From: Apteryx mantelli | Taxonomy: Eukaryota; Chordata; Aves; Apterygiformes; Apterygidae | Direction of reading: 5' to 3' | Length of the DNA: 64,000 nt | Assembly: GCF_036417845.1 (NCBI RefSeq) | Contig: NC_089994.1 | Coordinates: forward strand, 19,052,001 to 19,116,000 | Part shown: piece by piece, positions 37,881 to 60,500 of the stretch | Layout of the letters: each line of letters starts with the position of its first letter | Numbering within the stretch: position 1 is the stretch's first letter | Notes under the pieces: model-generated | Seen by the model: only the letters and a program-made list of their open reading frames with translations | The model's database searches: none | What the model was told of the DNA's origin: nothing | Position numbers and translations under genes: made by a program

Positions 37881-38150
37881 CACTGCCCACCTGGGGAGCA
37901 GGAGCCCGGCACAGCCCGGGGGCTGCCTCGGGGGCCCAGGGTTTCTGTCGCAGCAGTGAGCGCTGTCCCCACATGCCGCAGCCCCCCCAGTGCTGCCCCC
38001 AGAGCCCCCGATCTGCTGGACACGAGCTCCCGGTGGGGCCGGGCACTGGGGCGGCAGCATCGGTGGGGGCGCCGAGCCCTGGCCCTGCCGTAAGCCCCCG
38101 CCCTGGGGGCAGCTCCTCACCTTCCTCTTTTGCCCCTTTAAATGCAATGG

Positions 38151-38241: not shown

Positions 38242-38256
38242 TGTTTAGAAATTGTA

Positions 38257-39660
38257 CGGGTTTTTTTTCCCCCCTAAGCAAAGCCTAATCGCAGCTGATG
38301 CCTTCCGCACTATCTCGGGCTGTGCGAGTGGCGGTTTCCCACGCGGAGAGCTCGGCAGGCCAGCGCCCCAGCGCCGTGGCGGTCATCCCAGAATACCGGC
38401 AGCAGGGAGAGGCGGGGAGGCCGGCCGGGGGCCCGAGGGGTCTCGCTCCGCTCGGTGGCCCCTGCCCTGCGGTGACGGTCCCCCATCACCCATGGCTGCA
38501 GCTGGGGTCACCGGGAAAGACCTGCCGGAGCCTGCGCTCACCCAGGCTCCGGCCGGCTGCTCTGCTGGCCGCCTGCTCTGATCCTCTTATTGCTTGAATA
38601 CCGGCACGTTTGCTTTCTCCCGGTGCTTTCGGAGATCCCCAGCGCTGCTGCGGCACTAAGCACTGGCACCGGCAGGCCGGCAGCGCCCAGTGGGCTCGGA
38701 CACCGCTCACGGAGGCTGCTGCAGGAGCTCGTCTTGAGCGCAGAGTGTTCGCTCGCAGCTGCGCGCTATGCATACATCACCTGGGTTATTCCCAAAATAC
38801 AGAACCAGAAGCATTTACTGATCCCTTCCTTTCCCGCGTTTTTATTGACCGTTCTGTCGTTCCCGGCATGGCACGGCCTGGTGCGATCGCTGCCGCTCCT
38901 TTTGCTTCTGACTCTCTTAGAAGCCGGGTTTCTCGTCTTTAGGGTGGCCAGATCCTTTATGATTCTTTTCTTTCAATTTACATCCATTTTCGTGTTTGTT
39001 AGCCGCGTTTCTATTTCAAGCTGCATTCGCTTCCTCTTAGAGCCAGGGTGCTTTTTCAACCGCTGCGCTTTGCCCAGGGTTTCTAAGCATTAATGAGCAC
39101 TTCTCGCAGCGTGGGCTCCTTGCACCCGCTCCTGCCCAGAGGGGTGCACGGTGCGAGCACCGCAACGAGCACCGCAACGAGCTGCCTCAGCCTCAGCCCG
39201 GCGGGCTGGCGGCCTGTGCGGTGCCGGCTCAGCCCTGCCAGCACGGCCGCGGCTGTGTGCACGGTGCGCGGGGCTCATCTGCACGCCGGCTGCTGCGGCC
39301 CCCGGCAGGAGCTGACCCGGCAAGTGCAGGGATGCAGCTGCGCCACCGGGCATGCTCCAGCCTGGCCACAGGGCCATCCCCAAACGCACCACGACGGGGG
39401 ATGCCGGCTGGCTCCGGAGCTGCGGGGCCGGGGGTGCGGAGCCCTGTGCGGGAGCGCGGCGGGCTGGCGGCCTGCAGGGAGAGGTGCTTGCACCTCTGTG
39501 AGCAGCCGGGTACGGGGCTCTCCGGGGGCACGGCCACCCCGCTCGGTCGGGCCAGGACCTGCTCCGGCACAGCCGCGTCTCCAGCAAGGCTGAGGAGGAC
39601 ACCGTGTGGCCACTGCTGAGCCTGAGCCCTGCTCGAGCGCTGGGAAAAGCTGCGGGATGC
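38257..39660. other. Unassigned interval without a recognised gene
   Basis: Mixed sequence, GC-rich at both ends with a T-rich block at about 38,800-39,090. I looked here for CRYBA4 exons and for Greek-key words such as ERGEYP or GYRG and found none on either strand. Confidence 0.4.
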
Positions 39661-39664
39661 GTCA

Positions 39665-39870
39665 GGCTGCAGCTGCAGACACGTGCATGCATGCATGCGC
39701 ACCTGTGCACCCTCGCACACCTGTGCAACCCCATGGACCTGTGCACCCATGCACAGCCATGCACCCTCACACACCCATGCATACCAGTGCACCCATTCGC
39801 ACCCCTGCACACCCATGCACCCGTGCACCCACACACACCCGTGCACCCCCACGCACCCTTGCACACCGAC
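39665..39870. repeat. CACCCATGCAC short tandem repeat
   Basis: Tandem 10-12-bp words CACCCATGCAC, CACCTGTGCAC and CACCCGTGCAC with purine variants. The flank at 39,875-40,840 shows no gene. An AT-richer unique patch lies at 40,050-40,260. Confidence 0.8.
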
Positions 39871-40844
39871 TGCCAGCTTCACAGCACCATCCCTGCCCAG
39901 CGCGGCGTTCCCAGCCCGCGAGGAGCGGGCGGCCCTGGTGCAGCGCGGTGGTGCCGGGCTGGTGGTTGGCACACACGTGTGCACCAGCGCAGCCAGAGAG
40001 CTGGGGAAATGCAGAGCTATCGGGGGCTGTTGAGAAAACCGTCTTCTTCGGCTCATGAGAAAATGGCAATTAACTGAAGCTGAAAATGTGACAGGAAAAG
40101 ACCAGTTTGGACAAATTTCTCATTTCAGAAAGGTTCTGGAGAAAAAGATCTGATGTTTATTAAAATGTCCCATTACTGGCATTTCCAAAAGGAAGACCAC
40201 CATCGGAGACAACGGATTCTCCTCGCAGCAAACAAGGATTAAAATACAGACTAGAAGAAGGAACAAGAAGTTCTGGGATGGGCTGCGTGAAGCCCTTCTG
40301 CCACCCGGAACAACTGCATGGGGGCATCCACCAGCGAGACTGGCTGGAGGATTTGTGGTTTCCGTCCCCATCTGGCGCGTTGTGCGGGCGGGAGCCCGTC
40401 CTGCCTGGCGCCAGTGGGCAGCGTGGCACGGCTCCCGGCCGCTGCATGGCATGCACTGCCCCACCAGAGCCCAGAAACCTCCGGCTCCATGCTGGGACCC
40501 GGGAGCGGGGCCAGGGAGCAGAGGCACGGCACGCCGCGGCTGCTGGTGGCGGGAAGGGGTCCGTGCCACGGGGACGCTGCCAGGACCTGGGGCAACAACG
40601 CAAGAAAGGAGCAGCTGCAAAGGGCGCCGGAGCCCCCACGCTGCCGCCGTTCCCGCCCGCGCTGCCGGCACGTCCCCGGATGCGCCAGCCACCCCTCCGT
40701 CCCTGCTGAGCAGCCCTGCAGGAGCAGCAGGCACGAGCGTGCGTCCTCCGGGGCAGGCACCGGACACGGCAGCACTGGGCTGCTGGCGCAGCTCTGCCGG
40801 AGCCAGGAGTGCTGGGCAGGCCCAGGAGCTCGGGCGGCAGTGCA

Positions 40845-41895
40845 CACGCATGTCATGCCTGGGGGGGTGCACGGCTGTGCACACACGTGTGCAGAGCCTT
40901 GAGCAGGCGCACGCAGCCCCAGCAGCAGTGCACACACGTGTTGTGCCTGGGGGGGTGCATGGCTGTGCACACGTGTGTGCAGAGCCTCGAGCATGCATAC
41001 ACAGCCCCAGCAGCAGTGCACACGCATGTTGTGCCTGGGGGGTGCACGGCTGTGCACACACGTGTGCAGGATCCTGGAGCAGGTACACGCAGCCCCAGCA
41101 GTGGTGCACACGTATGTTGTGCCTGGGGGGGGTGCACGGCTGTGCACACACGTGTGCAGGAGCCTTGAGCAGGCGTACACAGCCCCAGCAGCAGTGCACA
41201 CGCATGTCATGCGTGGGGGGGTGCATGGCTGTGCACACGTGTGTGCAGAGCCTTGAGCAGGCGCACGCAGCCCCAGCAGTGGTGCACACACGTGTTGTGC
41301 CTGGGGGGGTGCATGGCTGTGCACACGTGTGTGCAGAGCCTCGAGCATGCATACACAGCCCCAGCAGCAGTGCACACGCATGTTGTGCCTGGGGGGTGCA
41401 CGGCTGTGCACACACGTGTGCAAGATCCTGGAGCAGGCACACGCAGCCCCAGCAGTGATGCCCATGCGTGTTGTGCCTGGGGGGGGTGCACGGCTGTGCA
41501 CACGCGTGTGCAGGAGCCTTGAGCAGGCGTACACAGCCCCAGCAGCAGTGCACACGCATGTCATGCCTGGGGGGCGCATGGCTGTGCACACACGTGTGCA
41601 GAGCCTTGAGCAGGCGCACGCAGCCCCAGCAGCAGTGCACACACGTGTTGTGCCTGGGGGGGTGCATGGCTGTGCACACGCATGTGCAGAGCCTCGAGCA
41701 TGCATACACAGCCCCAGCAGCAGTGCACACGCATGTTGTGCCTGGGGGGTGCACGGCTGTGCACACACGTGTGCAGGAGCCCCAAGTGGACGCACGCAGC
41801 CCCAGCAGCAGTGCACACGCGTGTCGTGCCTGGGGGGTGCACGGCTGTGCACACATGTGTGCAGGAGCCTTGAGAAGGTGCACGCAGCCCCCGGC
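40845..41895. repeat. Higher-order minisatellite: 88-90-bp monomers in a 354-bp, three-copy array
   Basis: The word TGCCT (or TGCGT) starts monomers at 40856, 40944, 41032, 41120, 41210 and so on. Monomers alternate in the order TTGAGCAGGCGCACG, TCGAGCATGCATACA, CTGGAGCAGGTACACG, TTGAGCAGGCGTACA, and this four-monomer block repeats at exactly 354 bp (40856, 41210, 41564). Each monomer holds GTGCACGGCTGTGCACAC and, mostly, ACACGTGTGC, which includes an E-box palindrome. Because 354 is divisible by three, both strands stay open for over 500 codons; these are not proteins. Confidence 0.92.
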
Positions 41896-41904
41896 AGCAG
41901 TGCT

Positions 41905-42650
41905 GGCCCCTCTCCCCTCAGCCCCCCATGGCCGCCAGCCCTCTCCCCTCAGCCCCCCCCATGGCTGTCGGCCCCTCTCCCCTCAGCCCCCCATGGCCGC
42001 CAGCCCTCTCCCCTCAGTCCCCCCATTGCCGCTGCCCCTCTCCCCTCAGCCCCCCCGTGGCTGCCAGCCCTCTCCCCTCAGCCCCCCCATTGCCGCCGCC
42101 CCTCTCCCCTCAGTCCCCCCGTGGCTGCCACCCCCCTCCCCTCAGCCCCACAGGCCCCTCTCCCCTCAGCCCCCCATGGCCGCCGCCCCTCTCCCCTCAG
42201 CCCCATATGGCCGCCGCCCCTCTCCCCTCAGCCCCCCATGGCCGCCGCCCCTCTCCCCTCAGTCCCCCCGTGGCTGCCGCCCCTCTCCCCTCAGCCCCCC
42301 ATGGCCGCCGCCCCTCTCCCCTCAGTCCCCCCGTGGCTGCCGCCCCTCTCCCCTCAGCCCCCCATGGCCGCTGCCCCTCTCCCCTCAGTCCCCCCGTGGC
42401 TGCCGCCCCTCTCCCCTCAGCCCCCCATGGCCGCCGCCCCTCTCCCCTCAGCCCCATATGGCCGCCGCCCCTCTCCCCTCAGCCCCACGGGCCCCTCTCC
42501 CCTCAGCCCCCCCAATGGCCGCTGCCTCTCTCCCCTCAGCCCCCCCAATGGCCGCCGCCTTTCTCCCCTCAGCCCCCCCAATGGCCGCCGCCCCTCTCCC
42601 CTCAGCCCCCCATGGCTGCCGCCCCTCAGCCCCCCCGTGGCTGCCGCCCC
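41905..42650. repeat. ~30-bp tandem repeat, CCATGGCCGCC plus CTCTCCCCTCAG unit
   Basis: About 25 copies of a 28-31-bp unit reading CCCCCATGGCCGCCGCCCC then TCTCCCCTCAG. In the middle the units alternate in ~60-bp pairs (ATGGCCGCC versus GTGGCTGCC). The array abuts the CpG island of the MIAT promoter. Each unit ends in a pyrimidine tract plus CAG on the plus strand. Confidence 0.92.
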
Positions 42651-42654
42651 CCTC

Positions 42655-43260
42655 CCCGGGGCGGCCGGCGGCCATGTCGGCGCAGGTGCGGCGGGTAATG
42701 GCGGCTGTGTCGCCCGCGGCGGCAGCTGGCGCCGGAGGCGTGAGCGGGCGGCGGGAGGCGGGAAGGGGGCTCGGGGCCGCCTTGGCGGCGTTAAGCTCCG
42801 CCGGGCGCCGCGGCAGAGGGCCGGGCGGCGGGGAGGAGCCTGCATGGCTAATGCCGCCGCGCCGCGCCGCAAGGCTGCGGCACAAAGGAGCTGCGCGGCG
42901 GCGGCGGCGGCGAGCCAGGCCGGGCCCGCGGCGGCCTCCCCTCCCTTCCCCTCCTCTGCCCTCGCCGCAGGCCGGGTAAGCGCGCTCGCGGGACGGCGAC
43001 GGGGACCGCGGCGCCCGGGGCCACGGTGAGGGCGAGGGTGAGGGTGAGGGCGGCGCCTCGTCGCGGGGCGCCAGAGCCGCCCGGCAGCGGCACGCGGTGG
43101 CGGCGGCCCCGGCGAGGCCGCGTCGCCGAGGGGCTCGTGGCCCCCGCGCCGCCCCGCTGCGCCTCTTTCGGGCACGGGCGGCTCCAGCTCCCGGCGCTCT
43201 TCCTGGCGTGCCGCAGGGCGGAGGCCGCCCGGGAGCAGCCCCGGTACCGCAGCTCCTATT
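42655..43260 (+). promoter_or_regulatory. MIAT: CpG island, likely MIAT promoter and first exon
   Basis: A dense CpG island with no open frame matching a known protein. A plus-strand donor at 42975/42976 (GCCGG before GTAAGCGC) could end the first exon. A second possible donor is CCACG before GTGAGG near 43,025. The link to MIAT rests on strand, spacing and the absence of another gene. Confidence 0.55.
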
Positions 43261-43322
43261 AACTGATGCACCGCTTGTTGTATTTCTTCTTTTTTCTTTT
43301 TTTTTTTTCTTTTTTTTCCCAG

Positions 43323-43352
43323 AAACCTCCTCAAGGATAGGGCTCCGGACAG
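43323..43352 (+). ncRNA. MIAT: Candidate 30-nt MIAT exon
   Basis: A long T-rich tract ending CCCAG precedes AAACCTCCTCAAGG..., which ends GGACAG before GTAAATGG. Both splice sites are strong, but usage is not shown. Confidence 0.4.
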
Positions 43353-45918
43353 GTAAATGGATTCTTGCCTAATTTACAGTGCTCCCGGAAGGAAATTTAG
43401 CCAAAATGCTCGTTTACTTCTTGGTCTTGAGACCACCATTTTCTCCTAAATTTGGTGACCTTAAGTAGGGGATTTAGCGCGAGAGGCCGGGGCGAGCAAC
43501 CCCCCCCTTCCCCCCCCCCCCCCGGCGCTTCAGCCCAGCCGTTCTCCCTGCAAAGAGTTAACCACAGCGCGTTTTGGGGAGCCATTTTCTCTCCCTTACT
43601 CTTTCAGCACCTTTTGCATGTGCAAATGCATCTCGGCCCTGAGAGCCCAGAAATAATAAGGGTTTTTTTAGCAGCTTCCGAGATTCCAGGGCATCTTTGT
43701 TATCCTGCCTCTGCCGAAGCCTCGGGAAAGGCAGAGCCTGGCCGGTCCCCGGCGGCGCAGCGGAGGCTGCAGACAAAGGGCGGCCGCGTCCAGACGCCGC
43801 TCCTGCAGCGAGTGCCTCGGTCCAGACCCCGGGCTGCGCGCCGGCCGGAGCAGAGGGCCCACGCTCTCCTCCCGGGAATGCCCAAATCCTGCTTCTTAAA
43901 GATCACCCTCTCCCGGCAAAGGTAAAAATTGTAAAATGCACCGTGCCTGCTGCACAGCGGCTCTGCTTCCCTTGGCTTGTCACAGAGGCAGCTCGCACCG
44001 GGGCACATGTCTGGTGTCTTAGCCTCTCTGCTCCTGCCTAGAGCAGCGCTCGCGCTCCTCTCTGGTTCCCTTCCCACTCAGGAGTATTTCTTTAGACCTT
44101 GTTTAACCTGAATGCTGCCTCCGGATGCTCAAACCCGGGGCACCCAAGAATTACAGCTCAGTGGTGCACAAAATGAATGTTTGGTTAACTGCTGCCCCTA
44201 CGAAATTGTTTTTCTCCCCTTCCTATTTCCTGTATGTGCCTCATCATTGACCCGAGAGGGAAAACGTTCAGAAGCAGCCACTTCGGTGGAGATACTGTCC
44301 TGCCTACCCTTATTACAGACACCTCCTAGCTCAGATCCACGCAGGGAATCCATTTTCCGCATTCCTGAGAGCATCTCCCTTGCCTGCTACTGCACTTGCT
44401 TCTCTCCAGATCCTGCAGAGCCCAGGCACCCTTGCGTAGGCCCCAGCTCTTACAGTCTGTTCCCACAGCAGCGTGGTTTGCAAATGCTTCTTGGATGTGC
44501 TGTCCTTGAGGAAGGAGTTGTCCTGCAGGGGACTGTCTGCACTGTGAACAATAATAAACAGCAGGAAGCAATAACTGCTCAGCAGCTGAACTGTGGAGCC
44601 GTCATGGTCCTGCTCCACAGGGATTTTGCGCCACTGTTGCTTTTCCTACGCAGGTATCGCATGAGAACGTGAATTAGTGCAGTCTGACTGCTGGGTCCTG
44701 TCACTTGCTCTTAGATCAGTGCAAAGGTGGAACCGTAATGACCATAATGATGCTGGCGTACGTCCAGGCCAGTTCTGCTTAAAACAGTGTTTTGGGCATT
44801 AGCAGGATCTGACTGAGCCTGGTTTACCTGCAGCGGTAGGCGGTACCTGCTGCTAGCACGGAGAATTCCAGCACCAGACAAGGGCAAACTGTCCAGGATA
44901 CTGCCGTTAGCTCTGGTGTGGTCTTTCCCGTCCCTCCCAGGATTACCCTCCTCTTCGGGAGCTCAGTGTGCGTCCAGGCCCACGGTGGGCACGGCTCCCT
45001 CCTGGCACTGCCGGGAGAAGCAGAAGGCAGAGGCTCTGCATTGCCCTTCACTCGCGTTATAGCAGCCCGGGCTGCTGTGAGTGTCCAGGTACTGAGGAGA
45101 AGCCTGAGGTGGAGCTGTGGGCTTGGGGTGGCATCTCGAGGGTGCGGAGCTCACCTGACTCTGCGGGAAGGGTCTGGGAATTGCCATGTTTTCCTTAGGC
45201 AGTGCCAGGACAGGGCTTTTCATCCTTCTGGGCTGAGAAGATGCATCTGCCTCCTGTCCAGCCGGGGCCTGTCCCCTTCCCCGTGACAGCGTGGAGCATG
45301 GCAGAGGAAATCTGCGTGGAGCCGGCGGGGTGCCCTGCTGGGGGCACCGAGGGCTGGAGGCTCCCGGCGCCTCCTCCGGCACGGATCTCCCCTCTCTGCC
45401 CTGCAGGGAGCTGGCCCCTGCCTCGCCCCGGCACGAAGCTCTGCCTGGCCAGCGCCTGGCCCATCCTGTAAGCTCAGCTCTCGGTCCCAGCAGTGGGGGG
45501 GTTGATCTGAGGATGCAGCCTTGGAAGCTTGATCCCATTAAGCCGCAGCCGGTCCAGGTCCTGCAGGGATGGGGGCCCGAGCTGCCTCGCTGGAGCCGTG
45601 CCAGGGGAGGACCTCGGGCAGCTGAGTTGGTGCAGCCCCACGTGTGCTCTGCGGGTGCTGGCTGGCACAGCAGCTCTCTTCTCCCTGCCTGCCGGCCCCA
45701 CGGCTCCCCCGGCAAGGCCGTGGCAGGCTCTGCAGGAGGGGACAGCCCCAGGGACACTCAGGACAGGGGAAGCTTTGTCCAAGCCCTTCTGGGCTCCGGA
45801 GTGGCACCAGGCATCTGCCCCGGCCTCTGCTGGGCTCTGCCCGGGGATGGGGAGAGGCTGCCAGCGGAAAGTCCTGCATGTTGTTCTCTCTTGCTGCGTT
45901 GGTTGTTTTCTTTTGCAG
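43353..45918 (+). other. Presumed MIAT intron
   Basis: No protein, RNA gene or recognised transposon seen. An AATAAA at about 44555-44560 could in principle end a short transcript. Open frames over 45.2-45.9 kb reflect GC richness. Confidence 0.35.
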
Positions 45919-46034
45919 CCGCTAATGACTGACCTGAGGTCTGTTCACACACAGTCCCCTGCGCAGCCTCCACGGCGGAGCAGCGAGACAAGACGGGGGG
46001 CATTTTACAGCACTCGCCTAGCCGCTGACATCAG
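45919..46034 (+). ncRNA. MIAT: Candidate 116-nt MIAT exon
   Basis: The acceptor GTTTTCTTTTGCAG and the donor CATCAG|GTAGGA flank an exon starting CCGCTAATGACTGACC. It is the clearest internal exon between the CpG island and the TACTAAC exon. Confidence 0.5.
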
Positions 46035-47902
46035 GTAGGACCCCGGGGCGGGGGGTGACGCAGAGCAGCCCCAGCGCACGTCTGGCGCTTGGGGGCTCCA
46101 GCTGGCAGCAGGGATTCAGCCCCGTGCTCCTCCCCATGCCTTTGGACCCAGCCCGGGCGGCTGGGAACCAGCTTTAGTCCCTGGGTTTGATCCCGCTCCT
46201 GGTGGGGCTCCTCTCCACACCCCGAGCCCTTGCAGGCACTGCCTGGACTCCGGGCTGGTTCCCGGGGCCACAGTTTTCCCCTGGGGTCTGCATGCACGCG
46301 GGGAATGTGCCTCATCCCCCGAGGGGACACCCGCCGAGCCGCAGGTGTGCAAGGGCTGGGGTGGCCTGTGGGCCTAGCGATGGGCAGAGGCTGCTGCCAC
46401 TGCGGCCGGGCTCTCACAGCCTCTCTCTGCTCCCCCCAGAGCCGCCGGCCGCCGGGGCGCTGCCCGAGCTCTCCCCGGCCAGCCCGGGCCGTGCCTCGCG
46501 GGGAGCCCGGCCGCGGGGAGCCAGACCGCGGGGAGCAGCGAGCGCCGCCTCGGGCAAGGACTGCGAAGCCGCGGGAGCCGGGCGGCCCACGTGGAGCTGC
46601 CTGCTGCGGGCTGGCACGGGCCCGAGCCGTGAGCCCGGCTGCCGCGAGGGACGGGGCCGAAGGACTGGCGGTGGCGATAGCCGAAGACGCGGGTCTGCGC
46701 GTGCAAGGTGCCCAGGGCATCCTCCCTTCCCTCCCGTCCCTGCGGCAGACGCAGAGCCATGGGGAAGGGGTGGGCAGCTGAGCGGCACGGGCAGGACGGG
46801 AGCTCGTCCTCTCCGCCAGCCCCATGTGGGTGGAGGAAGGAGGGGAGAGGACCGCAGGGAAGGAGAGGACGGGAGCGGAGCTGTGCCAAACCCCCGGATC
46901 CCCCCCAAGGCAGACTGCCTCCGTGAGCGCACCGTGCTGGGATGCAATAGTCGGAGCCCAAGGGGCCCCAGGCTGTCCCTGCCCAGCTTGAGCCACTTCC
47001 CACCTATCCTGCCCTGTCTCCCGTCTGTCCCCAAAGTCCTGGTGCTTTTCACTCCTACACTGCTGCTGCCAGGCCCTGGTGGGAGGAGGGACCCTTAGGG
47101 GCACTAATGGCCTCTACTCTGGCATGTGTGTTCTGAGAAAACACTTGGTTTCTGGAGCAATGTGAGGAAGAGGGGCTAGCACATGCCTCCCTCCCAAAGC
47201 CCCCCGTGCCAGGGCTTCGCGGCTGTGCTGGGCCGCTGTGGCCAGGACGTGCGCGCTGTGAGCCCGTCTCACAGTTGCACTGGTGAAGAGTCTGATCCAG
47301 CATTTTTCTCCTTAGCACAGAGCGAGGGTCGGGAGTGCAGCGACCTGTCGCGTGTTGGGCACTGTGGGAAGGCAGAGAGCAGGCACAGGTCGTGGCAGGC
47401 AGTTTGCAGGAGCTACAGCCCTGGAATACCAAAATGGAGAACCAGCCTTGTGGGGAGCAGGGATCCGTAGCATGAGGTGACCTGGGGGGAATACAGGGAC
47501 AGAGACTGCCCTGGATACCTCTTCCCGGCCCTGCGTTATTTCTCTGGGTGTGGGGCAGAACTGACTGCTTCCTGCTGCCTAGCAGCAAATTAGCAGCATG
47601 CATTCGTTAGCTGGGATTCTGTCCTCTCCGGCAAATATCCCCAGTGAGTGGCAGTTTGTAATGGAGAGGGGATAAGTTATCAGGGCACATTTTCTCCAGA
47701 ACGTGTGGTTTTTCTCCCCCGACCTCCTCCTCTTTCCATGAGGCAGTGGGAGCTCAGTAGAGACATGGAGCAGAAATCTGTCTCCAGGAGTCCTGCTCTT
47801 GCAGAGCCGTTAGCCTGCAGCCTTTGCTCCTGGTGCTGCTAGCATAGATTTCACTGTGCTCTAGTGATGCTTTCACCCATTCTCTGTCTCTGCTTCTTAC
47901 AG
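46035..47902 (+). other. Presumed MIAT intron
   Basis: A CpG-rich patch lies at 46.43-46.70 kb. The rest has no recognisable gene or repeat. Confidence 0.35.
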
Positions 47903-50900
47903 CTCCTTTAGCGTCCCTAGCCTTGGAGCCTTGCAAAGCTGAGTCAAAGACTAGGGCACTGCCTGGACCGTCTCCTTGTGTGCACGGGTACCGGGGGGGG
48001 GAAGCACCTGCAGTGGGGGAACACTCTGCTCAGGGTGTTTTGTACCTGATGAACATGGATGGTAGGGGCAGATCCCCTTCCCTGCAAGGCATTTTATTCA
48101 GAAAGCATGTTGCATTATGTAGGTGAAATAATCCACTAACACCTTCCCAAATCTTGACCCAGTAGCAAAGCCCAAAAATGCCTCCTAATACGGAAAGCTA
48201 GAGTCCCTGCTGCAGTGAGAGCAAAGCAGACTAATCCCCCGGGAAGCGCTTCCTCCACCGGCAGGTGGGACTAGCCGTGACCAGCCGTGCATGCGTGTCG
48301 CTCTGCTCCGTTATTAACGTACTAACCCCGCGAGGATCTGCGCGGAGGCGCCTCCAGACACTCCTGCTAGTGACGCTGGAATGCTGAGTAAGTCACTCGT
48401 GAATGAACTAACCAACTAACTGGCTCTAACGCATGCTCTACTAACCAGTCTCGTTTCACTTTCTACTAACTGTCGACAGCAAATAGTGTCTTTAAAGGGG
48501 AACGGAAAAGCTGGGTAAGTACATTTGCAAAGTCACGGACATTGCCACGTCAGTGACAGAATCCATAGGCAGAGCCAAATATTGCAAGCGCTTCGACCAG
48601 GCAAGACAGCGAGCGGGGGCTCCTCCAGGTGCCTGCCAGCACCTGAACAAGCGGCTGCTTTCGCCGGGAAGCGGGGAGCCTCCCCTCGCACCCTTGCCCG
48701 GTGCGGCCGGCCCCCCGGGCCTGCGGAGCAGGGCAGCGGCTGCCCTGCCGCTCTGCGCAGGTAAATCAGGGAAGAGACACCTTCTCCCTGGTGTGTGGTG
48801 TGCAGTGCCGAGGCCTGTGTGTGGATTCTGTTGCTGACTCGGTATCCTAAAATGGTTTTATCAGCAGAAGCTTTTCAGTTCCTTTTTAAGCCAGTAGATC
48901 TCTCTCTGTTACTAACACATTCCTGAACTGAATTAAACAAACTAATTGTTGCTGCTTTTCTCTTCATTTATCTTCTAATATGTATGTTCTATAAGTAGGA
49001 CAGATTATGCCATGCTTCTGTTTACTAACTGCTTGTACTAATCTTTCCTTACTTGTTTCTCTATTGCTACTAACAAATATTCTTTGCACTTTAACTTTCT
49101 GACGCTATTCACCATGACAAATGAACAAACGGCCTCCTCCTCTCCCCAGGGGACTCTCTAGGTTATGAACCTGCAGTAGTCTGGTTTTCAGTGCTGCTGA
49201 CCATCTCTGTCTCCCATTAAGTACAAAGAAAGGGAAGATGCTCAAGGTGGGGGCGGGGGGAGCTTTGAACATTTGCCTGTTGGCCTCTTGTTTTCAGAGA
49301 AATTTCGGGAGGCTAAACGAAGCAAAGATGCTGAGTGGAAATATGATAATGCTGAAACCATTATGTTCCTTATAGCAGTTGGTAATTACCAGAAAGGTCC
49401 AGCAAGCCTAGTTTGCAGAGAGATTCAGACAAAAAGCAGTGATATTTCCATAAGCCCCATCAGCACCTGAGCTCGGGGCTCACGTGGAGGCGCAGTTCAC
49501 CTGTCATTGGGAATGGCTCTCGTGCTGCCTTCCTGCTCCGGCACTCCTGAGCTCTAAGATGGATGCAGGGCACTCTCGGGCTCTTCAGTCTCTCTGTCTC
49601 TCCGCAGTTTATCTTGTGACCTTGATGTATGTGGAAAGCCATTGCCAACAGCGTGATCCTAACTAACTGCAAGGAGCCAAGGGCTAAGTCTAACCATTTG
49701 GTTGGTACTTGCAATGTTTATTCCCAGTGCCTAACGCAGCGGAAGGGGAGGGAGGAGTGGGAGGTGAGTGGTGATGTGCCGGCCGGAGGGCACTCTGCTA
49801 TCAAGTTGTCTGATAGAGTTAGGATGCTGCTGACGCCATCCTGGTCTTGAGGCCTTGCTTTTGCTTTCTGTCAGTCTGTAATTTAGGTTAAACTTCCACT
49901 GCATTTACACTGATTCTGCTGGGGTTAAAGCTTCAGGATCTGGCCTATCTGCATTGTTTCAGCATGCAAACTAGAAATATACGGTTAAACATCATCAGCA
50001 TTAAGTGTTGGCTTTTAACAACAGCACTGCTGAGACTACTAACAGGACAAAACTAACCCTTGCATGCCAGGAGGAGGGTGGTGGTCTCTGTGTTTCTAAC
50101 CGCACTTCGGTCCTCAGGACAAAGGCCTGATTCATAAGGACATCCAAGACCATGACAGCCGGTGCAGGTGTTTGACACCTCCGTGCACCCAGAGACCTGT
50201 TGTGCCGGGTGTCGGTCTCGAGGAGCGCTGCTCCTCTGCACCCCGGGGACAACGGGGAAATGCTCTTCTCTGACCATAGCCAGGTGAAAGCGCTGTGCCG
50301 GCGTGTGCCATGCCAGCAGCCGGCCACTGCTGAGGGGAGAGGAGGGCACGGGGGCAGTGGGGAGCCGGGGGGTTCCTCTCCGTCCGCACGGAGGTGCAGA
50401 GCCAACAGGCAGGGTGGTTCTGCCCAGGTGGTTTTATGGATCTGGCCTGCATCCAGTTCCAGCTGCTCGCTCTCTCTCTCTCTCTGTTCTCCTTCCCTTT
50501 TGCTGTGTTGACTAACCCTGTGGTGAGGACCTCCTGTCATAACCCCGTGTCCCTGCTGGCTTGAGCCTAACAACTAACAGCTCTTCTGCTTTGTGTTGAA
50601 ACGCATAGACCGAGAAAGGCCTCCACCGCTGCTGATCTTACTGCAAGTCTGCTGCCTGTGTCTGTAGCCGAAGTCTCTCTAACCTCTGTTATGTACTAAC
50701 CGCTGCAACCTGTTCCTTTCAGTCTGACACTGACGGCTTGGTGGGAAGTCTTGCTGGGGCGCTCTCCGCTAACCTAGCTGCCTCCTTTCCCTTAACAGCT
50801 CAGTCCCACACCTGGCGGTGTGCATTTGCATCTGAAACGCTAGCCAGTCAGCCAGCTGCCATGGCCCGCCTGACCTTCTCCATATTAACCCACTAACCGT

Positions 50901-50920
50901 TCCCCCTCCCTTTTCTCAGC
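47903..50920 (+). ncRNA. MIAT: MIAT 3' exon with TACTAAC (SF1-binding) repeats
   Basis: Exact TACTAAC begins at 48320, 48439, 48464, 48910, 49023, 49068, 50037 and 50694. Near copies AACTAAC, CACTAAC or GACTAAC begin at 48134, 48406, 48414, 49661, 50051, 50510, 50572 and 50891. TACTAAC is the intron branch-point consensus; in Gomafu/MIAT such repeats are known to bind SF1 and slow splicing in vitro. The motifs are dispersed and not in a regular tandem array. Stops are frequent in all plus frames. A CT microsatellite lies at about 50,468-50,486. Confidence 0.85.
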
Positions 50921-50999
50921 AAGGCTGGGATCAGGAGGAATTTTTGGGCTGATGCTCATCCGCTTAATTGGAGACGATGTCTGCCCCTCCCCAAATCCA

Positions 51000-53880
51000 C
51001 AGGAGGCAGAGGTACTGCTGCAGGCTGAAGGGCAGAGAAGTAGCTCTGGCATAGAGTAAAAGAGTGGGGATGAGGAAAGAGCAGGAGACAGAAGGAGGAA
51101 GGCAGGAGGACAAGCTGGGTCCAGCCGCGGGAGAGGTGAGTCCCCCTTCCTTGGGGCAGTCTGGTTCAGGGCATCGGAGCCTGCACGTCCTCTTAAGGAA
51201 ACCTGCAGCCTTCGGAGACGAGCGGGAATCCCTCCTGCCACCCCAAGCATTGGGCTGGCTTTGCCTGAGCCCTTCTGCTGTGAAGGACAGCCCTCCTCTG
51301 CCCTGGGGTGGTCCCTGCCTTTCCTCTCCAGAAAGGCTTTCCAGCCCAGTCCGGGTGGCCAGGAGTGACCTTGCCGGGTTGTTCCCTGCTCACCCACCTA
51401 AGGGAGTGGTGGGACCAGGAGGCCCAAAGGATGCCCCAGGCAGGTGCTGCCCGGCACAGGGCTAGTGCTTCCTCCTAGCCCTGCGGGGGGGGGGGGGGGG
51501 GGCAGCTTGCCAGCTCCCTCCGAGTCACTGTCCCCTCTCGCCCTCCTCCTGGCACGGCCCCCCCTCCTGAAGAGAGTGGGGGCCTGGAGCAGGGGGATGA
51601 GGGGCTCCATGACCGGCTGCTTGCCCCTTCCTCGGCTCTGCCCGCCACCCCAGGGCTCCCTGCCCCACGCCTGCGTCTCCCCTGGCTGCTCCTCGGCTCT
51701 CTCCCCGGCTTGTCAGCGCTGGCGATGCTCCATCCCAGCTGCCGGTGGGGCGCAACGCTGCCGGGTCCTGGCGTGGGGAGCCCCGAGGCCGTGGCGTTGC
51801 GGGAAAAGGCAGGAGCCCAGCTTAGAAGACCCTTATTCTGCTCCCGGGTGAGTTAGGGCAGTTACGGGGCTGGCGGCTGGCCTGACCTTCCCCTTCGCTG
51901 TCCCTGCAGCGGCTGCCTTACCGCAGGTGACAGGTACAGTGAGAGGCCAGTGGGTCCCCTCTTTGCAGAGCTCGCCGGGGACACCCCTGGCTCCGGTGTC
52001 TCGGTGTGGGTGGGAGGGCGTCGGAGCTGCCTGGCGGGGATGCCTGGGCAGCCCGCGTCTCCTGCAGAGCCCCCTCAGCTGCCGCGGCTCTCCGTGTGCT
52101 CCAGGGCCCGGAGCTCCCGGAGCCCCGTGCAGGAGGGGACAGCCTGAGCGCCGGTGCTGCCGCCGGCAGCGCCCTGCGGAGCCCGGCACCGGGGGAGGCC
52201 GGGCGAGCGGCACGGCTCCTGGGCCAGCCCTGCGGAGGAGCCGGGCAGGGAGCGGGGCTGCGCGCGATGCACGGTGTGCCAGGGAAGGGGGGTCTGGGGC
52301 TTGGCGCGAGGGCCGGGGCCACCAGCAATGTCCCTTCTGCCTGTAACCTCTGCTGTAAACACGGTGAGTCTGCAAACGCCTCTGCGGTCTGGTGTGTGTG
52401 TGTGTTGGGGGGTGTCACGGAGGGCTGGGGGACGGTGCCTGCTGTGGGGGGCTCAGCGCTGTGCCTGTTCCCGCGCCAGCCTGCTGCCTCCTCTGGCTCC
52501 CGGGGAGCCCCTGGGAGCTGCTGTGAGCACCGATGCTGCGGCGGCGTCCCCAGGCCTTGCTCCGGCGGGTCCCGAGCCCCCGGCGCATGGATGCACGGGG
52601 TTGCACGGTGCGTGGATACACGGGGGTGCGTGGTGCGGGTGAGCCCAGACCCGTGGCAGGGTGGCTGGCGGCTCTGCCCCGCCGTTGGGGGCAAGGTGGG
52701 GCCAGGCTGCTGCATGCCGGGGGGGAGTCTGGGGCTGCCCCCCTGCACTGTGCTGGGGACCGAGCGTGGGGGCCAGGCGGGCGGCTCTCACCGAGCTCAT
52801 GGCAGCAGCCGGGGCTGCCTGACAGCAGAGCGGAGCAGGTCCGAGGGGGACAGAAATGCCCCTGCCGCTAGGTCCCACCCTGGGCAAAGGGGTTTGTCCT
52901 GCGCCGGCCGGGCTGGGCGCTGCGGGAGGGACGGGGCTGGTGTCACCTCCTCCACACTGGTGAGGACGAGCCTGGAGCGGAGCTGCCTGCCGGAGCAGCC
53001 CTGCTTAGCAGCTGTGCTGTGCCTGGGGGACCATTTTGTGGATTTTGGTGGCCAAGAGCTCTAAGAGGGGGGGTCCTGGGGGTGCGTGAGGGGGCTGCAG
53101 GGGGCACGAAGGGCCTCGCTGGCACATCTTGCTGTGCAGCTGGAGGCCATGCGGTGGCCCCGGGCGAGGGCAGTGGGCGAGCGGGGGGCCTCGCACAGCC
53201 CCTACCCCGCCGCACGGGGCTGCCCGTGCCCAGGGCGCAGGATGCAGCCGTGGCCCCCGCTGCAGGCTGCGCTCCGGGGCGGTGGGCGCCCGCCGGTCCC
53301 CGCGCCCGGCCCGGCCCGGGCAAGGCAGCAGCAGATGGAGCTCTTGCTCCAGGAAAACCCTTCCCGGGCGGGCTGCTCCCCGGCTGCTCCGCTGCTGCTG
53401 CCCTGCTGCTGCCCCCAGCCCCGGGGCTCCGCGGCTCTCGGCCGGCTGCCCCGGTGGGCTGTGCCTCTTTCCCTGCACCGCGGGAAATGCGTTTCTGAGC
53501 ACGGGGGGAAAAGGCGCCCGGACGAGCAGGGATCCAGCAATGCAAGCAGAGAGGTGCAGCTGCCGCCTCCCAGCACCGCTCGGCCGTGCCGGGCCGAGAC
53601 GTGCCGGCAACCCCTGTGTGCCAGCGCTGCGTGAGCCCCGAACCCCCTGGGAAGGGGAGTGGGGTGATGCCCCCCAGGGCAGGCCAGCAGCCGGTGCAGT
53701 GGGAGCCTGCGGCACGGTGGCAGCGGGGGCTCCGCGAGCGGCCGTGCTTTGCCTGGGGCAGCTGCGGAGGGGGCACCTGCCTGGCCGTGCTCGCAGCTAG
53801 CGGCTCCCGGGCTCTGCAAGGCTGCGCCAAGCTCCCGGCCCCGGCACGGCCCCTGCTCCCTCCAGGCAGGGTGGGAAAGG
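51000..53880. other. GC-rich interval, no gene recognised
   Basis: It may include the far 3' part of MIAT. An 18-base G run at 51485-51502 is a likely trouble spot. Open frames on both strands have the composition of GC-rich DNA and match nothing I know. Confidence 0.35.
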
Positions 53881-53884
53881 AGCA

Positions 53885-54065
53885 GCCAAAGCGCCATGTT
53901 TATTTTCCCCCCGGTAAGCAGCATTTTGACATGTCACAGCAAGTCTCTCAAATGCATGTTGACAGAAAATGTGTACAAGCAAGAGAAATGTTGTTCATTT
54001 GCATCAAATTGCAAAGTGATTTGGTGGAATTGATAGGTGGCATTTCTGTTAGCATCCGTAAAGAC
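53885..54065. promoter_or_regulatory. Candidate conserved enhancer element
   Basis: An AT-rich island in GC-rich surroundings. It has a TGACATGTCA palindrome (53927-53936, TGIF/MEIS type) and an octamer ATTTGCAT (53997-54004, POU type). No coding frame. Conservation is inferred from composition and motif density only. Confidence 0.4.
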
Positions 54066-54654
54066 GCCGTGTTCTGCGGCGCCGCGCAAGCGGGAGCCGC
54101 GCGGGTCCGGGGCGGGGGCGCCTGGGAGCCGCCCTGAGCGTTGCCCACTGCCCAAAGCGTCCCCGTCCGAGGGCCGGGGCTGCCCCTGTCCCTGCCGCGC
54201 AAGGCCTGTCCTGCACCCTGCGCGGGGCTGCCCACGCTGGTGGAGCCCGTGGGAGCTGCCGCAGCATCGCCGCAGGCCCCGAGGGAAGGTGCCTCCGCGC
54301 AGAGTCTGCAGCTGCGAAATATCCCGCTGTCCATAGCTTGGCGATGCCTGAATAGGTTTGGAGTTTTTGCTCCCAGATCTGCAAAAGTGACACTTCAAGA
54401 GCTTTTGGTTTTCCGTTTACCCCCTCCCTCGTTCTGGTCCGGGAGGCGAACCCCGCGCTGCTCCCGCACGCTCGGTCTCCGGAGGCGGTGGCTGCGGCAG
54501 GGATCCAGCGCCGTGACCTTACGCTGCATCCGTCCCGGTGGCCCCTGATGGGGCTGTTCTCCAGGTCCGAGAGCTCGATCCCGCAAAGCGCGGCGCTTCT
54601 GCATCCCCAGCGCCGCACGGGGACAACGCGGGGAGACCTTGTTTGGCCAGAGTG

Positions 54655-54860
54655 TAGCGGCGTGGATTGAAATGTGGCTGCACATGTGGCCTCTTGACCT
54701 AACCTCATTAGGAAGGTGGAGGTAAAACTAATTAAGATCATGAAGTCCCAAACTGCGCATCTCCTGGTATAATTTATGTCTGGCCGCTCCTCATTCGCAC
54801 AACTAAAGTTGCGCTGGGTTAATATTCTGCGAATGCTAAAAGAGCAACCATGCAAAACGA
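54655..54860. promoter_or_regulatory. Candidate conserved enhancer element
   Basis: An AT-rich island with CCTCATTAGGAAGG, ACTAATTAAGATCATGAAG and TGGTATAATTTATG, including homeodomain TAATTA cores. Non-coding by eye. Confidence 0.35.
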
Positions 54861-55049
54861 GAGCGATGGCAGCAGCACCTCTCGGCACCGGGGCACGGCC
54901 CTGCGAACGCCGGACCCCGCGGCAGGGGTTGCGGCGGGTTTCTGCACTTTGCGTCCCAGCTGGCGCCTCGCCGGCCCTGGCCGCCGGCGTCACTGCTCAT
55001 CTCTGCTGCTTTCCGAGGGGCACGGTGCCGACCAAGTGGCGTTCATTTG

Positions 55050-55290
55050 TTTTCCAGATGGTTATGACTATTTCATATCTTGCAGCAAACAGAGCTGAAA
55101 ACCATATGTGAAATAATGAATAAAGCTGAAGCTTAAGACAGGAGATCCCTGGCACATCTTGGAGCAATTAAAATATCGGTTACAAACTTCCGTGCGTGTA
55201 AAGCCACCGTCCTTTCTCCTCCTACCTTTGTGGAACAAGACGGTGGCTTTGACTTGGTTGGGAACCAGAATAAATATTTAATTCCCACCT
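55050..55290. promoter_or_regulatory. Candidate conserved non-coding element
   Basis: A unique AT-rich stretch with AATAAA at 55119-55124 on the plus strand, which could alternatively be the polyadenylation site of an extended MIAT. No recognised gene. Confidence 0.3.
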
Positions 55291-55414
55291 GAAACAGAGA
55301 GCGCAGTAGCAGGGCTGGCGCGGGGCGTCCCGGCGCGGGAGCAAGCCCCGTGCACGGCGCTGGCAGCTCAGCGTGCGATGGGCTCCGGGGCCCCGTGGCC
55401 ACGCGCTCTCATTA

Positions 55415-55835
55415 ATACGGGCAGTTGCAAGGCGATCCGTAATTAGATGCTAACTGAGTTTTCTCTAAGTTGGGTGAGGGAAGGTCAGCAAGGTAGAACC
55501 GGAGTCAGCTTATTGTTATTATCAATCAATAACCTATTTATTTTCCAACACTCCTATTAACCTCTGCGAGCCGCCCGCCGCCTCCGTCTGAAGGGCTGCG
55601 CAGTCCGCCTTGCTGACTGGACAACTCTGATTGAAAATGCAACGGCGACCCGACCCCAAAGGCAGAATCCAATTAAGATCATTTTCATTTGTAGATTAAT
55701 ATTTTTTAGCGTGTTCTACATTCCTTGCTTCAGCATTTCGCGCAGGAACTGCTGCCTCATTACATGAGCAGCCCATATCGGCAGTGTCATAGGAAAATAA
55801 TTACAACTAATTAGGCGCCGAGACGATGGGATTGT
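55415..55835. promoter_or_regulatory. Candidate conserved enhancer element(s)
   Basis: Two AT-rich patches split by a short GC-rich gap. Sites include TAATTA (55440-55445), SOX-type ATTGTT (55512-55517) beside PBX/HOX-type ATCAATCAAT (55521-55530), and several ATTA cores at 55,670-55,815. Confidence 0.45.
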
Positions 55836-56209
55836 CCTTTCGCGGGGAGCGCGGGGCTTTGCTCAGCCTCTGCTGCCTCCCGGGCAGCCGGAGCGGCGGC
55901 GGGATCCCCGCTCCGGTGTGCAGGGCGCGGGATGCCCTGAGGGTGCCGAGCCCCCGCGGGGGCTGCGGGAAGAGCAAAGCGCAAGGAGCCGTTGTGTGCC
56001 GAGGCACCGTGCGCGCGGGAAGCCCTGTGCTGCGGCCTGGCCGAGCCTGGGAACGTGCGGGGACCCACGGCCGGCCCCGTCCTCGTCCTCATCCTCATCC
56101 TCGTCCTGCCAGCCCCATCCTCGCCCGGGGACCGGCGCATCCCTGCCGGTGGGTCCCATCCGGAGCCCCCGGCCGAGGCTGGTGCGGAGACGCGCTGGGG
56201 CGCGCAAGG

Positions 56210-56580
56210 TGCTGCGGTAATTGGCTGATGAAGCTTGGCCTTAACGTAAAGTCCATTATTAATAACGTGACTTTGATAATAAAAAGATTAAAATTAAGCT
56301 GATGGTGGGCTGGCTGCCCTTTCCGCGCTGCAATCATCCCTCATTCATATTCATGAACCGCTCATTAGTAACCACTGCTTACGAGCAGCCCGAGCAGCCG
56401 AACCGCGCAGCAGCCACCAGCTCCTTAACTGCTTAACTTGCTCTCTGATTACCAACATCAAATTAACTCTGCAGAACGGATCTAATAAGCTTCCCGGTGG
56501 CTTCAAACCTCCTTGAAAATTGCTCTGATGTCTCCATGGGGCCCTATTAAAAAAAAAAATTCTTCCCCTGCGAATATTGC
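56210..56580. promoter_or_regulatory. Candidate conserved enhancer element
   Basis: A long AT-rich island with TAATTGG (56218-56224), CATTATTAATAACG and ATTCATATTCAT (56343-56354, POU-like), plus several ATTAA cores. No coding frame with any familiar protein. Confidence 0.45.
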
Positions 56581-57274
56581 ACTCTTTCGGTGGGCGACAC
56601 ACGGGGCGGGCAGCTCCAGGACCCGCCGCAGCCCCGGCCCTCGCTGGCGGGTGCGCGCTCACGTGTGCGTGCTCACGCGCGCTCGCCGCCAGCGTGCACG
56701 GCGAGGCTGCTCCCTGCAGGCCGCCGCCGCTGCAGCTCGTTCCTTATCGGCAGGTGTTTCGGCTGCGGAAACGGCTGTTTGAACTGGTCGGGAGCTTTTC
56801 CTGGGAGCTCAGCCGCCACCGTGGCGAAGCTGCGCCCCGCGCGGGCGGCAGCATTGCTGCCCTCACCTCCCCCCCCCGCCCCGCCTGCTTCTCACGCCTC
56901 CGGCTTTGCTTCTCCCAAACCCGGCTCTGATGAAAGACGCGTTTCTTTTTGAGCTGTGCTGGCTACTAAAAACTCTCCGAACTCCTGCGCCGGTCGGCGA
57001 GAGCCGCGAGGGCCCCAGCTGGCAGCGCCCTCCTGCCGCCGGGGCTCATCTCTGAGCCTGGGTCAAACACCTCCGAGCCTTAATTTGCCTGTTTGCTAAC
57101 TTGAGGCTTGCATAACAAAAGAATAAATAAGAATGACCTTTCAGTTTAACTACATTTTTCAGATGTGGAAAATATATCGACTTTCCGAAAGGGGGTTGCA
57201 AGGGGCTTTGCGGCGGCTGTTTTGGAGGGGGCGAGTGGGACGGCAGCCGGAGCCTGGCGGCTGAGGGGACGGCC

Positions 57275-57420
57275 AGGTGCGCGGTGCATGGTGCCTGGTG
57301 CATGGTGTGTGGTGCACAGTGCATGGTGTCCAGTGCATGGTGTCCAGTGCATGGTGTTCAGTGCGCGGTGCACAGCGCATGGTGCACAGCACATGGTGCA
57401 CGGTGCATGGTGTGCAGCAG
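57275..57420. repeat. TGCATGGTG short tandem repeat
   Basis: Ten- to fourteen-base words GTGCATGGTGT, CCAGTGCATGG and GCACAGTGCATGG in tandem. It directly follows an AT-rich island at 57,060-57,185. Confidence 0.8.
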
Positions 57421-58034
57421 GACTCTCCGTGTGCACGTGCTGCCCATATCGAGCACAGAGCCGGCTCAGGTCCCCAGGAGCGAGACGCGGGGGGGCTGCA
57501 GGGTCCAAGGGACGGCGGCGAAGCACGGGGACGATGGCCCAGCCTTGGAGGAGGGCTCTGCACCGGCAGCGGGGCCTTGCTGCGGGAGCCGTCGGGGTTC
57601 GGTCGCCCCAGAGCCGCCAGCTCCTGGGCCAGGCATGACGCTGGTCCACGTGGGCTCGCCGCGGCGGGGGCTCCGCTCTGCGGGGGCGGCGCCATCGGCA
57701 GCTGCTCGGATCGGCGCGGAGGGTGGGGGTGGCTTCCTTGCAATTAGCTCTAATTAATATTTCAGTGGCTGCCAGCCAGCGCGATTTTGCCTAATGCGAA
57801 GGAATGTGCCCCGGCGCCCAGCGTCACGTGAGCCGCGAGCCCAGCGCTAACCCTCCATCTCTCCCATTGCCATGGCAACGGCAGGCGGAGGGCCGTCAGG
57901 AAGCGCAGGAGAAAGCCGGCGCGAGAGGGATGCTGCCGGCGCCTAGAAATACATCCTCGCTGGTGCGGCCAGAAACGGCGCCCCCGAAACCCCTTGGAGA
58001 GGGGCTGATCGGCTCCGCTTGGGAGGCTGCAGCC

Positions 58035-58260
58035 CCGGCAGGACACGGCTGTGCCCAGGATGCTGCGGTGCCTGGGACACAGTGGTGCCCGGGATGCTGT
58101 GATGCCTGGGATGCTGCGGTGCCCAGGATGCTGCAGTGTGCAGGATGCTGCGGTGCCTGGGGCATGGTGGTGCCCGGGATGCCGTGATGCCCAGGATGCT
58201 GCGGCGCCCAGGATGCTGCAGTGCCCAGGACACTGTGGTGCCCAGGATGCTGCTGCGATG
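58035..58260. repeat. GGATGCTGCGGTGCCC minisatellite
   Basis: Roughly 15-18-bp units alternating CCCAGGATGCTGC(G/A)GTG and CCTGGGATGCTG(C/T)G, about 13 copies. Confidence 0.85.
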
Positions 58261-58489
58261 TGCCGTCATGCAGAGCCCAGCCTGGCCTGCTGACGGCTGC
58301 TGGCTGGGCACTGCGATCCCAGGCGGATGCAGCAGGGCCCAGAGCAGGCAACCAGGATGGGAGGCGGCGAGCTGGCCCAGCACTCGCCCCCAGCCTCCCT
58401 GCTTGCGGCTGGGCTCGCTCCCTCCGCTGTGAGCGCACAGGAGGCTCGGGAGCAGCGCTGCCTGTTGCTGCTGTCGCCCAGGGGAAGAT

Positions 58490-58610
58490 ACAGGGTGTGC
58501 AAGGTGCAGGGTGTGCAAGGCACGAGGTATGCAAGGCACGGGGTGTGCAAGGCACGGGGTGTGCAAGGCGCGGTGTGCACAAGGCGCAGGGTGTGCAAGG
58601 CACGTCCAGG
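58490..58610. repeat. GTGTGCAAGGCACGG short tandem repeat
   Basis: About seven copies of a 15-17-bp unit GGTGTGCAAGGCACGG with small variants. Confidence 0.85.
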
Positions 58611-59199
58611 CCCCCGATGCAGCACGGGAGCCCCCGCGCCCCCCTGCCCAGGGCTGCGGTGCTGCCAGGCTCCTGCGGCTCCCGGGCCTCTCCCGCGCTG
58701 ACGGCACCAGCCAGGCGGCTACAAATTCCCGCGCCCGGCACATATTTCCTGCGCGCTGGTGAGCGCCTCTTGCAGCCAGCCAGCGACAGGCGAGATTTAG
58801 TGGGCAGGATGCGGAGAATTTGTGCATCGGTTCCCTACTTTATGGCAGAGGAGCCGGAGCGATGGCGGCAGGGCGCAGCCGGAGCCGTGCCGTGCCGGAC
58901 TGGACCGTCGTTCCCGGACCTCCCTCGGGGCCGTCGCCCCCTGAGCGCCCGGATCTGCACCGGGGGCCACCAGCCCCCGCGGGCGCGCGGCATGCCAGAG
59001 CAGCGGTTTTCCAGGGGCTCTTGTCCAGACGAGGCAGGGGGATCCCAGGCTTCTGCAGGGCCACGAGGGACCCGGCTCACCCGACCCCCCGCAGCAGCTT
59101 CGGAAGGGCAAAGCCGGGCAGGGAGAAGCTGCGCCGCCCCCTCACCCCGGCGTTCGGTCCCCACCGCTCACCCCCGGCGCCCCCTTCGCCCTCCATATT

Positions 59200-59490
59200 C
59201 CCAGATTCTGCCTAGAACCGATGTTAATAGTGGTTTATTTCAGGTTTTCAGCCCACTTTCTCCCAAGCAAATATTTACGCTGAGCTCCATTTTCCATTTC
59301 TTTTCAATTACCGCCGTGTCTGATCACCTCCCCACAACTCTCCTCTTTAGCCATAAACACAAATCCTATTATCTTTTCTCTTTCTGTGTATTTGCCCTTT
59401 GATTTAAGCTGCATTTTCTCCTGTTTTCATCAGTTCTGGGCCTCTCCTGCTGTATATCTCCCTGTTTATCTACTTTCCAAAGGCCTCCTC
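59200..59490. promoter_or_regulatory. Candidate conserved non-coding element
   Basis: A pyrimidine-rich, AT-rich island with GATGTTAATAGTGG, AAATATTTACG (forkhead-like) and TTCAATTACC. No gene recognised. Confidence 0.35.
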
Positions 59491-60229
59491 TTATTTCTCC
59501 GGCCCTGATCAATACGGCTGCGGAGCCGGCTGGCAGCTCCTCTCCGATACCGCGTGTAGTTTTTCTTGGGGGACTTGTCCAGTATTTCTTGTTAAGCTTC
59601 TGTCTCAGCTCGCTCCGTTTCTCATTAGGCTTCAGCGCTGCCCTTGTAGTATTTCTTGTATTTCCACGCTGCCCGGCGGAGCCCTTGCAATTCGTGGCGG
59701 CGAGGCTCGAAGGTCTCGCTCCGCAGGGGCTCCCGGGCCCGTCCGGCTCCGGTCTGAAGCGGCGAGCGCCGTGACACTTTGATTTTCAGGTGGAGAAAAG
59801 GACGTCTCTGCTTGCAATCCTGGCCATGATTTTTCCTAACGAAAAGGGCAACGGGGATTATTTGCATTTCACAGCCGCTATTGCAGGGGATATATTTACG
59901 GGGGAAGCGTGGGCGCGGGGGCGGCTGGGAGGCGTCCGGTGGCTCCGCCGTCCGTCCACCCCATCCGGTGTCCCGCAGCCTGCAGCCGGCTCCGGATGCC
60001 CGCGGGGCTGCTCTGGAGGCTCCGCTGCCCCACGGTGAAACGCTCCCCCAAATCCCCTCCCCGGCCCCCTTTCCCAGGCCGCTCGCCGGCCAGTGAGCAG
60101 CGCTGCTGTTTTGCAGGCGCCTCCACGCGTTCTTCCCAAAATTTTCCTTCTGCAGGAAAAGCTGGTTTTAAAATACGCCCCAGCTTTCTGGCTGTCAAGA
60201 GCTGGCAAACGTATTGCTCTCCGTGGCTG

Positions 60230-60500
60230 CATTTCTGAGTATTAAACATGACGCGCAGTAGCCACTACGCAATATTTCCTTGGATGCCACTGCACCACGG
60301 GAGCCAAACAGTGTCCTTTAAAATAAAACCAGTTTTTCCTGTCTCCTCCACAGAATAGCCTTATTTATACACGCCCAAACAGCTGTTACTGTAGGTTAAC
60401 CAAAGCTTGTAAAAACATTTCTCAAACGCCCTTAACTTCGCCTGGTTTGTTATTGAAATTGTTAATCTTTGTTTTAGAAATTTTTTTCCCATCACACTAG
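60230..60500. promoter_or_regulatory. Candidate conserved non-coding element
   Basis: An AT-rich unique stretch flanked by GC-rich DNA, with homeodomain- and SOX-like words. A smaller similar patch lies at 60,780-60,890. Confidence 0.3.

Follow-up and report, generated by a model that had tools for sequence, protein, structure and literature searches.

Positions 47903–50919 of the window, the 64,000-nucleotide stretch of kiwi DNA analyzed here (C17:19052001–19116000), very probably hold the bird orthologue of MIAT (Gomafu) on the forward strand, and are predicted to act as an array of decoy branch points for SF1 and perhaps for QKI. What we observed at this locus is an excess of the word TACTAAC and its core ACTAAC, a strand bias of these words, their absence from the near flanks, the position of the segment, and the order of two MIAT exon-5 models. 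An exact word count found eight copies of TACTAAC on the forward strand of the segment (at 48320, 48439, 48464, 48910, 49023, 49068, 50037, and 50694) and 16 of ACTAAC, spread over about 2.8 kb from 48135 to 50897, while the reverse strand has none of either. A large exon whose sense strand repeats TACTAAC/ACTAAC is a feature of MIAT/Gomafu. The T that completes UACUAAC precedes 8 of the 16 ACTAAC copies and is missing from the other 8. The first-pass annotation had counted sixteen TACTAAC words, exact or one-off, on a single strand; the strand was right, and the number stands if ACTAAC was meant, as is probable (eight exact copies and eight differing at the first base), but not literally, as up to one mismatch in TACTAAC gives 21 words on the forward strand and 6, all inexact, on the reverse.

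The same annotation had proposed that the motif be counted against shuffled sequence. Neither count was attained in any of 2000 dinucleotide shuffles of the segment, which averaged 0.11 copies of TACTAAC and 0.62 of ACTAAC, and these two words are the most over-represented 7-mer and 6-mer of the segment, respectively. Nor is there an equal density of the motif on the reverse strand or in the flanks: ACTAAC does not occur on the forward strand of either near flank (32001–47902 and 50920–64000), the reverse strand of the latter has a single copy, and the more distant positions 1–32000 have four on the forward strand. Elsewhere in the genome, 16 loci fetched for crystallin or globin exons (51,585 bases; L009–L016 and L028 excluded, L025–L027 overlapping the window) hold 10 ACTAAC copies over both strands, with a maximum of two on either strand of any one locus. 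The nine excluded loci, which were matched by the two MIAT models, have at most two per strand.

These two Rfam models match the forward strand of the segment in the order MIAT_exon5_1, MIAT_exon5_3. The first (RF01875) aligns to 48305–48471, a stretch that includes 5 of the 16 ACTAAC copies, scoring 31.7 bits, with an E-value of 0.14 when 10 kb was scanned and 0.87 when 64 kb was; the second (RF01877) aligns to 50397–50820 with 26.1 bits (E 0.00026 and 0.0017 for the same two scan lengths). Both scores are far below the Rfam gathering cut-offs, 100 and 90 bits, and a scan of the window at gathering level returned no matches; in the 64-kb scan some unrelated families appeared at E 0.07–0.2, smaller values than that of MIAT_exon5_1. 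If the models are built chiefly from mammalian sequences, as we assume, the sub-cut-off scores lower the case for membership of the Rfam families, not the case for orthology. We also searched the genome (1.50 Gb in 408 contigs) with both models. With RF01875, for which the best 45 of 69,827 candidates were scored, the better of the two matches listed is C17:19100310–19100469, that is, 48310–48469 of the window, at 21.6 bits vs. 19.6 for the next. The latter, at 16.77 Mb of C17, was considered as a paralogue and rejected, having one ACTAAC in 3.1 kb. With RF01877, for which the best 18 of 106,796 candidates were scored, at least eight places elsewhere reached up to 27.7 bits and the MIAT locus was absent among the matches listed; since those places score alike, we discarded this model as genome-wide proof, and the MIAT_exon5_3 match adds order and strand, with no genome-wide significance.

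The first-pass annotation had described the primary sequence as otherwise hard to align, and our alignments bear this out. Raw local alignment to the exon5_1 consensus scored 57, where 37 overlapping windows elsewhere reached at most 35 and the opposite strand 28; for exon5_3 the score was 52, with at most 49 in those windows and 44 on the opposite strand. When the words were kept fixed and the rest was shuffled locally, the exon5_1 score was attained in 2 of 200 shuffles and the exon5_3 score in none of 200, the best-aligned stretch for the latter consensus (local score 52) being 50646–50756 on the forward strand. Once the words had been masked in both sequences, the scores fell to 34 for exon5_1 (maximum elsewhere 40) and 45 for exon5_3 (maximum elsewhere 62), not above other windows; homology outside the words, favored by the raw and motif-fixed tests only, was therefore not accepted as significant. 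The MIAT identity is well supported, and it therefore draws above all on the words, their strand, the order of the models, and the place of the segment, with a weak extra similarity that is best at 50646–50756.

As for place, the window carries an SRRD-like exon with an SRR1 domain at 4533–4892 on the forward strand (PF07985, 26.1 bits against a cut-off of 24), followed by three genes on the reverse strand: TFIP11 (tuftelin-interacting protein), with exons at 9760–15984 named by their domains (GCFC, PF07842, at 9760–10254 and 11564–12145; TIP_N, PF12457, at 15232–15984), TPST2, with its large coding exon at 21728–22609 (PF13469; best PDB chain protein-tyrosine sulfotransferase 2, 3ap1), and CRYBB1, with four crystallin exons at 34396–35518. 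PF00030 matches three of these crystallin exons and also the fourth, at 34873–35016; for two of them the best PDB chain is human beta-crystallin B1 (1oki). A frame at 7135–7539 had no family match. This order is that of human 22q12, where the four genes come ahead of CRYBA4 and MIAT. CRYBA4 itself was not found: the forward strand of the window between 35600 and 47900 has no exon of it, and the best matches genome-wide were CRYBA1 on C22 and, on C6, a gene that we take to be CRYBA2-like. The C22 crystallin is not a moved CRYBA4, as in two cleanly aligned exons it is 90–92% like human CRYBA1 vs. 67–78% like human CRYBA4. CRYBA4 may thus be absent between CRYBB1 and MIAT through loss or non-assembly. 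GC-rich minisatellites crowd the stretch 35783–42761, which lies between CRYBB1 and the MIAT segment; they include an 88-bp unit present 12 times at 40837–41903 and a 31-bp unit present 23 times at 41906–42627. PMC3116199 places Gomafu 3′ of CrybA4 in human, mouse, and chicken alike, and CRYBA4 is described as head-to-head with CRYBB1 in mouse and as expressed in the chicken lens (PMC9012887).

Could the words have come together without any relation to MIAT? It is hardly credible that they cluster by chance, grew as a satellite, or belong to a repeat family. We found nothing in favor of it, and the shuffles, together with a strand bias of 8:0 and 16:0, argue against it. The head-to-tail units of regular period that mark a satellite are not seen: Tandem Repeats Finder (score 50) listed no array between 46536 and 51660, the gaps between ACTAAC copies vary as those between random points do (coefficient of variation 1.00), and the flanks of one copy resemble those of another about as much as random places resemble each other (12.43 of 48 vs. 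12.05, sd 0.31), so the irregular spacing that had been read as speaking against satellite growth is upheld. It is very improbable that the words were acquired here by some other non-coding RNA with no relation to MIAT. Such an origin would fit the masked test, in which the sequence beyond the words can hardly be aligned to the Rfam consensus, and is opposed by the shared strand, the expected neighbors, and the order of the two MIAT exon-5 models. Motif content, strand, model order, and the neighbors TFIP11, TPST2, and CRYBB1 all concur with the MIAT identity first proposed for this segment.

Most likely, the segment makes up the main part of the large exon that corresponds to exon 5 of the Rfam models. 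We scored splice sites on the forward strand between 46.5 and 53.5 kb using an approximate matrix, which gives the four CRYBB1 acceptors of the window −0.2, 4.1, 5.6, and 7.6. The acceptor ending in ttcttacag just before the CTCC at 47903 scores 7.7. The first-pass annotation had placed the exon at 47903–50920, and its start is plausible on this score. Its end is not, since 50920 is the first base after the strongest 3′ splice-site-like element of the scanned region, a CACTAAC followed by a pyrimidine tract and CAG at 50891–50919 (score 9.8), and is therefore no exon end; going by the splice signal, it may be the start of a further exon. We note that 50920–51135 (216 bases), just past the last ACTAAC, is a possible internal exon, with this acceptor and a donor after 51135 that scores 7.1. 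The longest forward-strand ATG reading frame overlapping the segment has 83 amino acids, in line with the lack of a long sense-strand reading frame in MIAT. On the forward strand AATAAA does not occur between 44553 and 55119, and there is one ATTAAA, at 48932; the chicken genomic sequence is described as lacking both poly(A) signals, yet chicken Gomafu RNA is polyadenylated (PMC3116199).

By analogy with published mouse, human, and chicken work, we infer that the locus is transcribed, that its RNA is retained in the nucleus and binds SF1 or QKI, and that splicing is affected. In the proposed mechanism, the scattered UACUAAC/ACUAAC words would be strong branch-point mimics to which, in the transcript, the STAR-domain protein SF1 and possibly QKI would bind; the RNA would hold a local pool of bound SF1/QKI, and their sequestration would slow or shift the splicing of introns with weak branch points. 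Human, mouse, and chicken Gomafu RNAs all carry TACTAAC words, and the UACUAAC repeats of mouse Gomafu pull down SF1, for which UACUAAC was the best ligand among those tested; moreover, repeat oligonucleotides delay the in vitro splicing of a substrate with a weak branch point, and extra SF1 rescues it (all as given in PMC3116199). MIAT is reported to have 16 ACUAA elements in about 1000 nt, with which SF1 and QKI are each able to interact (PMC11483029). Two published observations count against a strong effect: most splicing is unchanged in neurons of Gomafu knockout mice, as described in PMC4890022, and most SF1 signal does not overlap with Gomafu RNA, as described in PMC3116199.

Two other readings of the words concern their use. 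It is possible, if somewhat unlikely, that they serve QKI or another STAR protein and not SF1, the RNA being a Quaking sponge with no branch-point decoy. QKI sites pair a core with a YAAY half-site, and here a separate YAAY lies within 1–20 nt of 11 of the 19 ACTAAY cores (half-sites inside other cores excluded), above random placement, which attains this count in 41 of 2000 cases. The T of UACUAAC is missing in half of the 16 copies, and ACUAA is said to be bound by both proteins, with higher affinity for QKI (PMC11483029). The presence of this T before the other half, in view of the preference of SF1 for UACUAAC (PMC3116199), goes against a sponge for QKI alone. A decoy shared by SF1 and QKI would, in our view, be the most likely arrangement. 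We think it unlikely that the segment is not one exon and that a number of the ACTAAC words function as true branch points in alternative introns of MIAT, such as one that starts at 49764 and runs to 50919 or as far as the AG ending at 50722. The acceptor before 50920 with its CACTAAC would suit such introns, as would the acceptor at 49150 (score 7.1) with TACTAAC upstream at 49068 and the donor GGGAG|gtgagt after 49763 (7.1). Nevertheless, within 100 nt the first AG scores at least 3 for only 3 of the 19 ACTAAY copies, or 5 of 19 with the copies at 49024 and 49037 included, for which the first AG, that of the acceptor at 49150, lies beyond this distance. The pyrimidine excess after the words is weak (+6 to +31; attained in 437 of 5000 random sets), as is the AG-free distance (173 of 3000), and Rfam nomenclature puts both matched regions in one exon, exon 5. 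The same two results, the 3 of 19 copies and the weak downstream pyrimidine excess, led us to reject a general composite in which every ACTAAC is followed by a pyrimidine tract and AG; the side ahead of the words is, if anything, the more pyrimidine-rich one (−30 to 0; attained in 69 of 5000 random sets).

One copy does have this composite form. The TACTAAC at 50694 is followed on the forward strand by CTGTTCCTTTCAG at 50710–50722, the two giving a branch point, pyrimidine tract, and AG that lies 24 nt past the branch A, and the resulting acceptor at 50722 has a moderate score of 3.1. The Rfam exon5_3 consensus aligned to this element reads GACTAAC and then CTGTTCCTTTCAG. Going by these letters, it is conceivable, at rather long odds, that at least this MIAT copy is a complete 3′ splice-site mimic, beyond the bare branch points, which could hold SF1 together with U2AF or be a regulated acceptor by which a portion of the motif-rich exon is included or skipped. 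Assuming a mammalian Rfam consensus, such a mimic would, on the basis of one alignment, have been kept since the bird/mammal split. Among the PMC titles and abstract openings listed for Gomafu/MIAT, none concerns a U2AF-type composite in MIAT.

The gene is already known, chicken MIAT having been published in 2011 (PMC3116199). According to that source, chicken cGomafu (AB570406) is nuclear and was detected in brain, not in heart, liver, or gizzard. It resembles the kiwi locus in coming from a bird, in its beta-crystallin neighborhood, in its TACTAAC words, and in being non-coding, and differs in that it lies 3′ to CrybA4, a gene not found at the kiwi locus, and in that its cDNA (3045 nt) has three exact TACTAAC words vs. 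eight in the 3017 bases of kiwi genomic sequence. Human MIAT (NR_003491) and mouse Gomafu/Rncr2 (AB300594) have seven and six in transcripts of 10,142 and 8,701 nt, close to the eight found here (PMC3116199), and have the exon5_1 and exon5_3 models in the same order. The MIAT described in PMC11483029 has its 16 ACUAA elements in about 1000 nt, whereas the 16 ACTAAC of the kiwi are spread over about 2.8 kb. The ACUAA elements of NEAT1, which are used by QKI according to the description in PMC11483029, likewise place STAR-protein words in a long non-coding RNA, from another gene. Among the PMC titles and abstract openings listed for Gomafu/MIAT, none concerns MIAT in a bird other than chicken. 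What is new is therefore a further bird, with more exact words (eight, genomic) than the three of the chicken cDNA, the possible loss or non-assembly of CRYBA4, and the TACTAAC + CTGTTCCTTTCAG element present also in the Rfam consensus. These results lend support to the view that a non-coding RNA whose remaining sequence has drifted may still be recognized through its position and its short protein-binding words, and is probably preserved through them as well. With its eight exact words, the kiwi can usefully be set beside the chicken cDNA already published, and CTGTTCCTTTCAG after TACTAAC is one non-motif element bearing on how the RNA holds splicing factors.

The avian source given by the first-pass annotation agrees with the globins of the genome. 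Three alpha-type exon matches lie on C16 and four beta-type on C1 near 1.35 Mb, one of them with a stop in the matched frame, a layout in keeping with the alpha and beta clusters known from birds. The nearest PDB chains to the beta globin tested are, by narrow margins, 3wtg and 3a59, from emu and ostrich haemoglobins, so by its globins the bird may be a palaeognath. Finally, about 45 copies of a GCGAT-type 5-bp repeat occupy 61716–61942 of the window.
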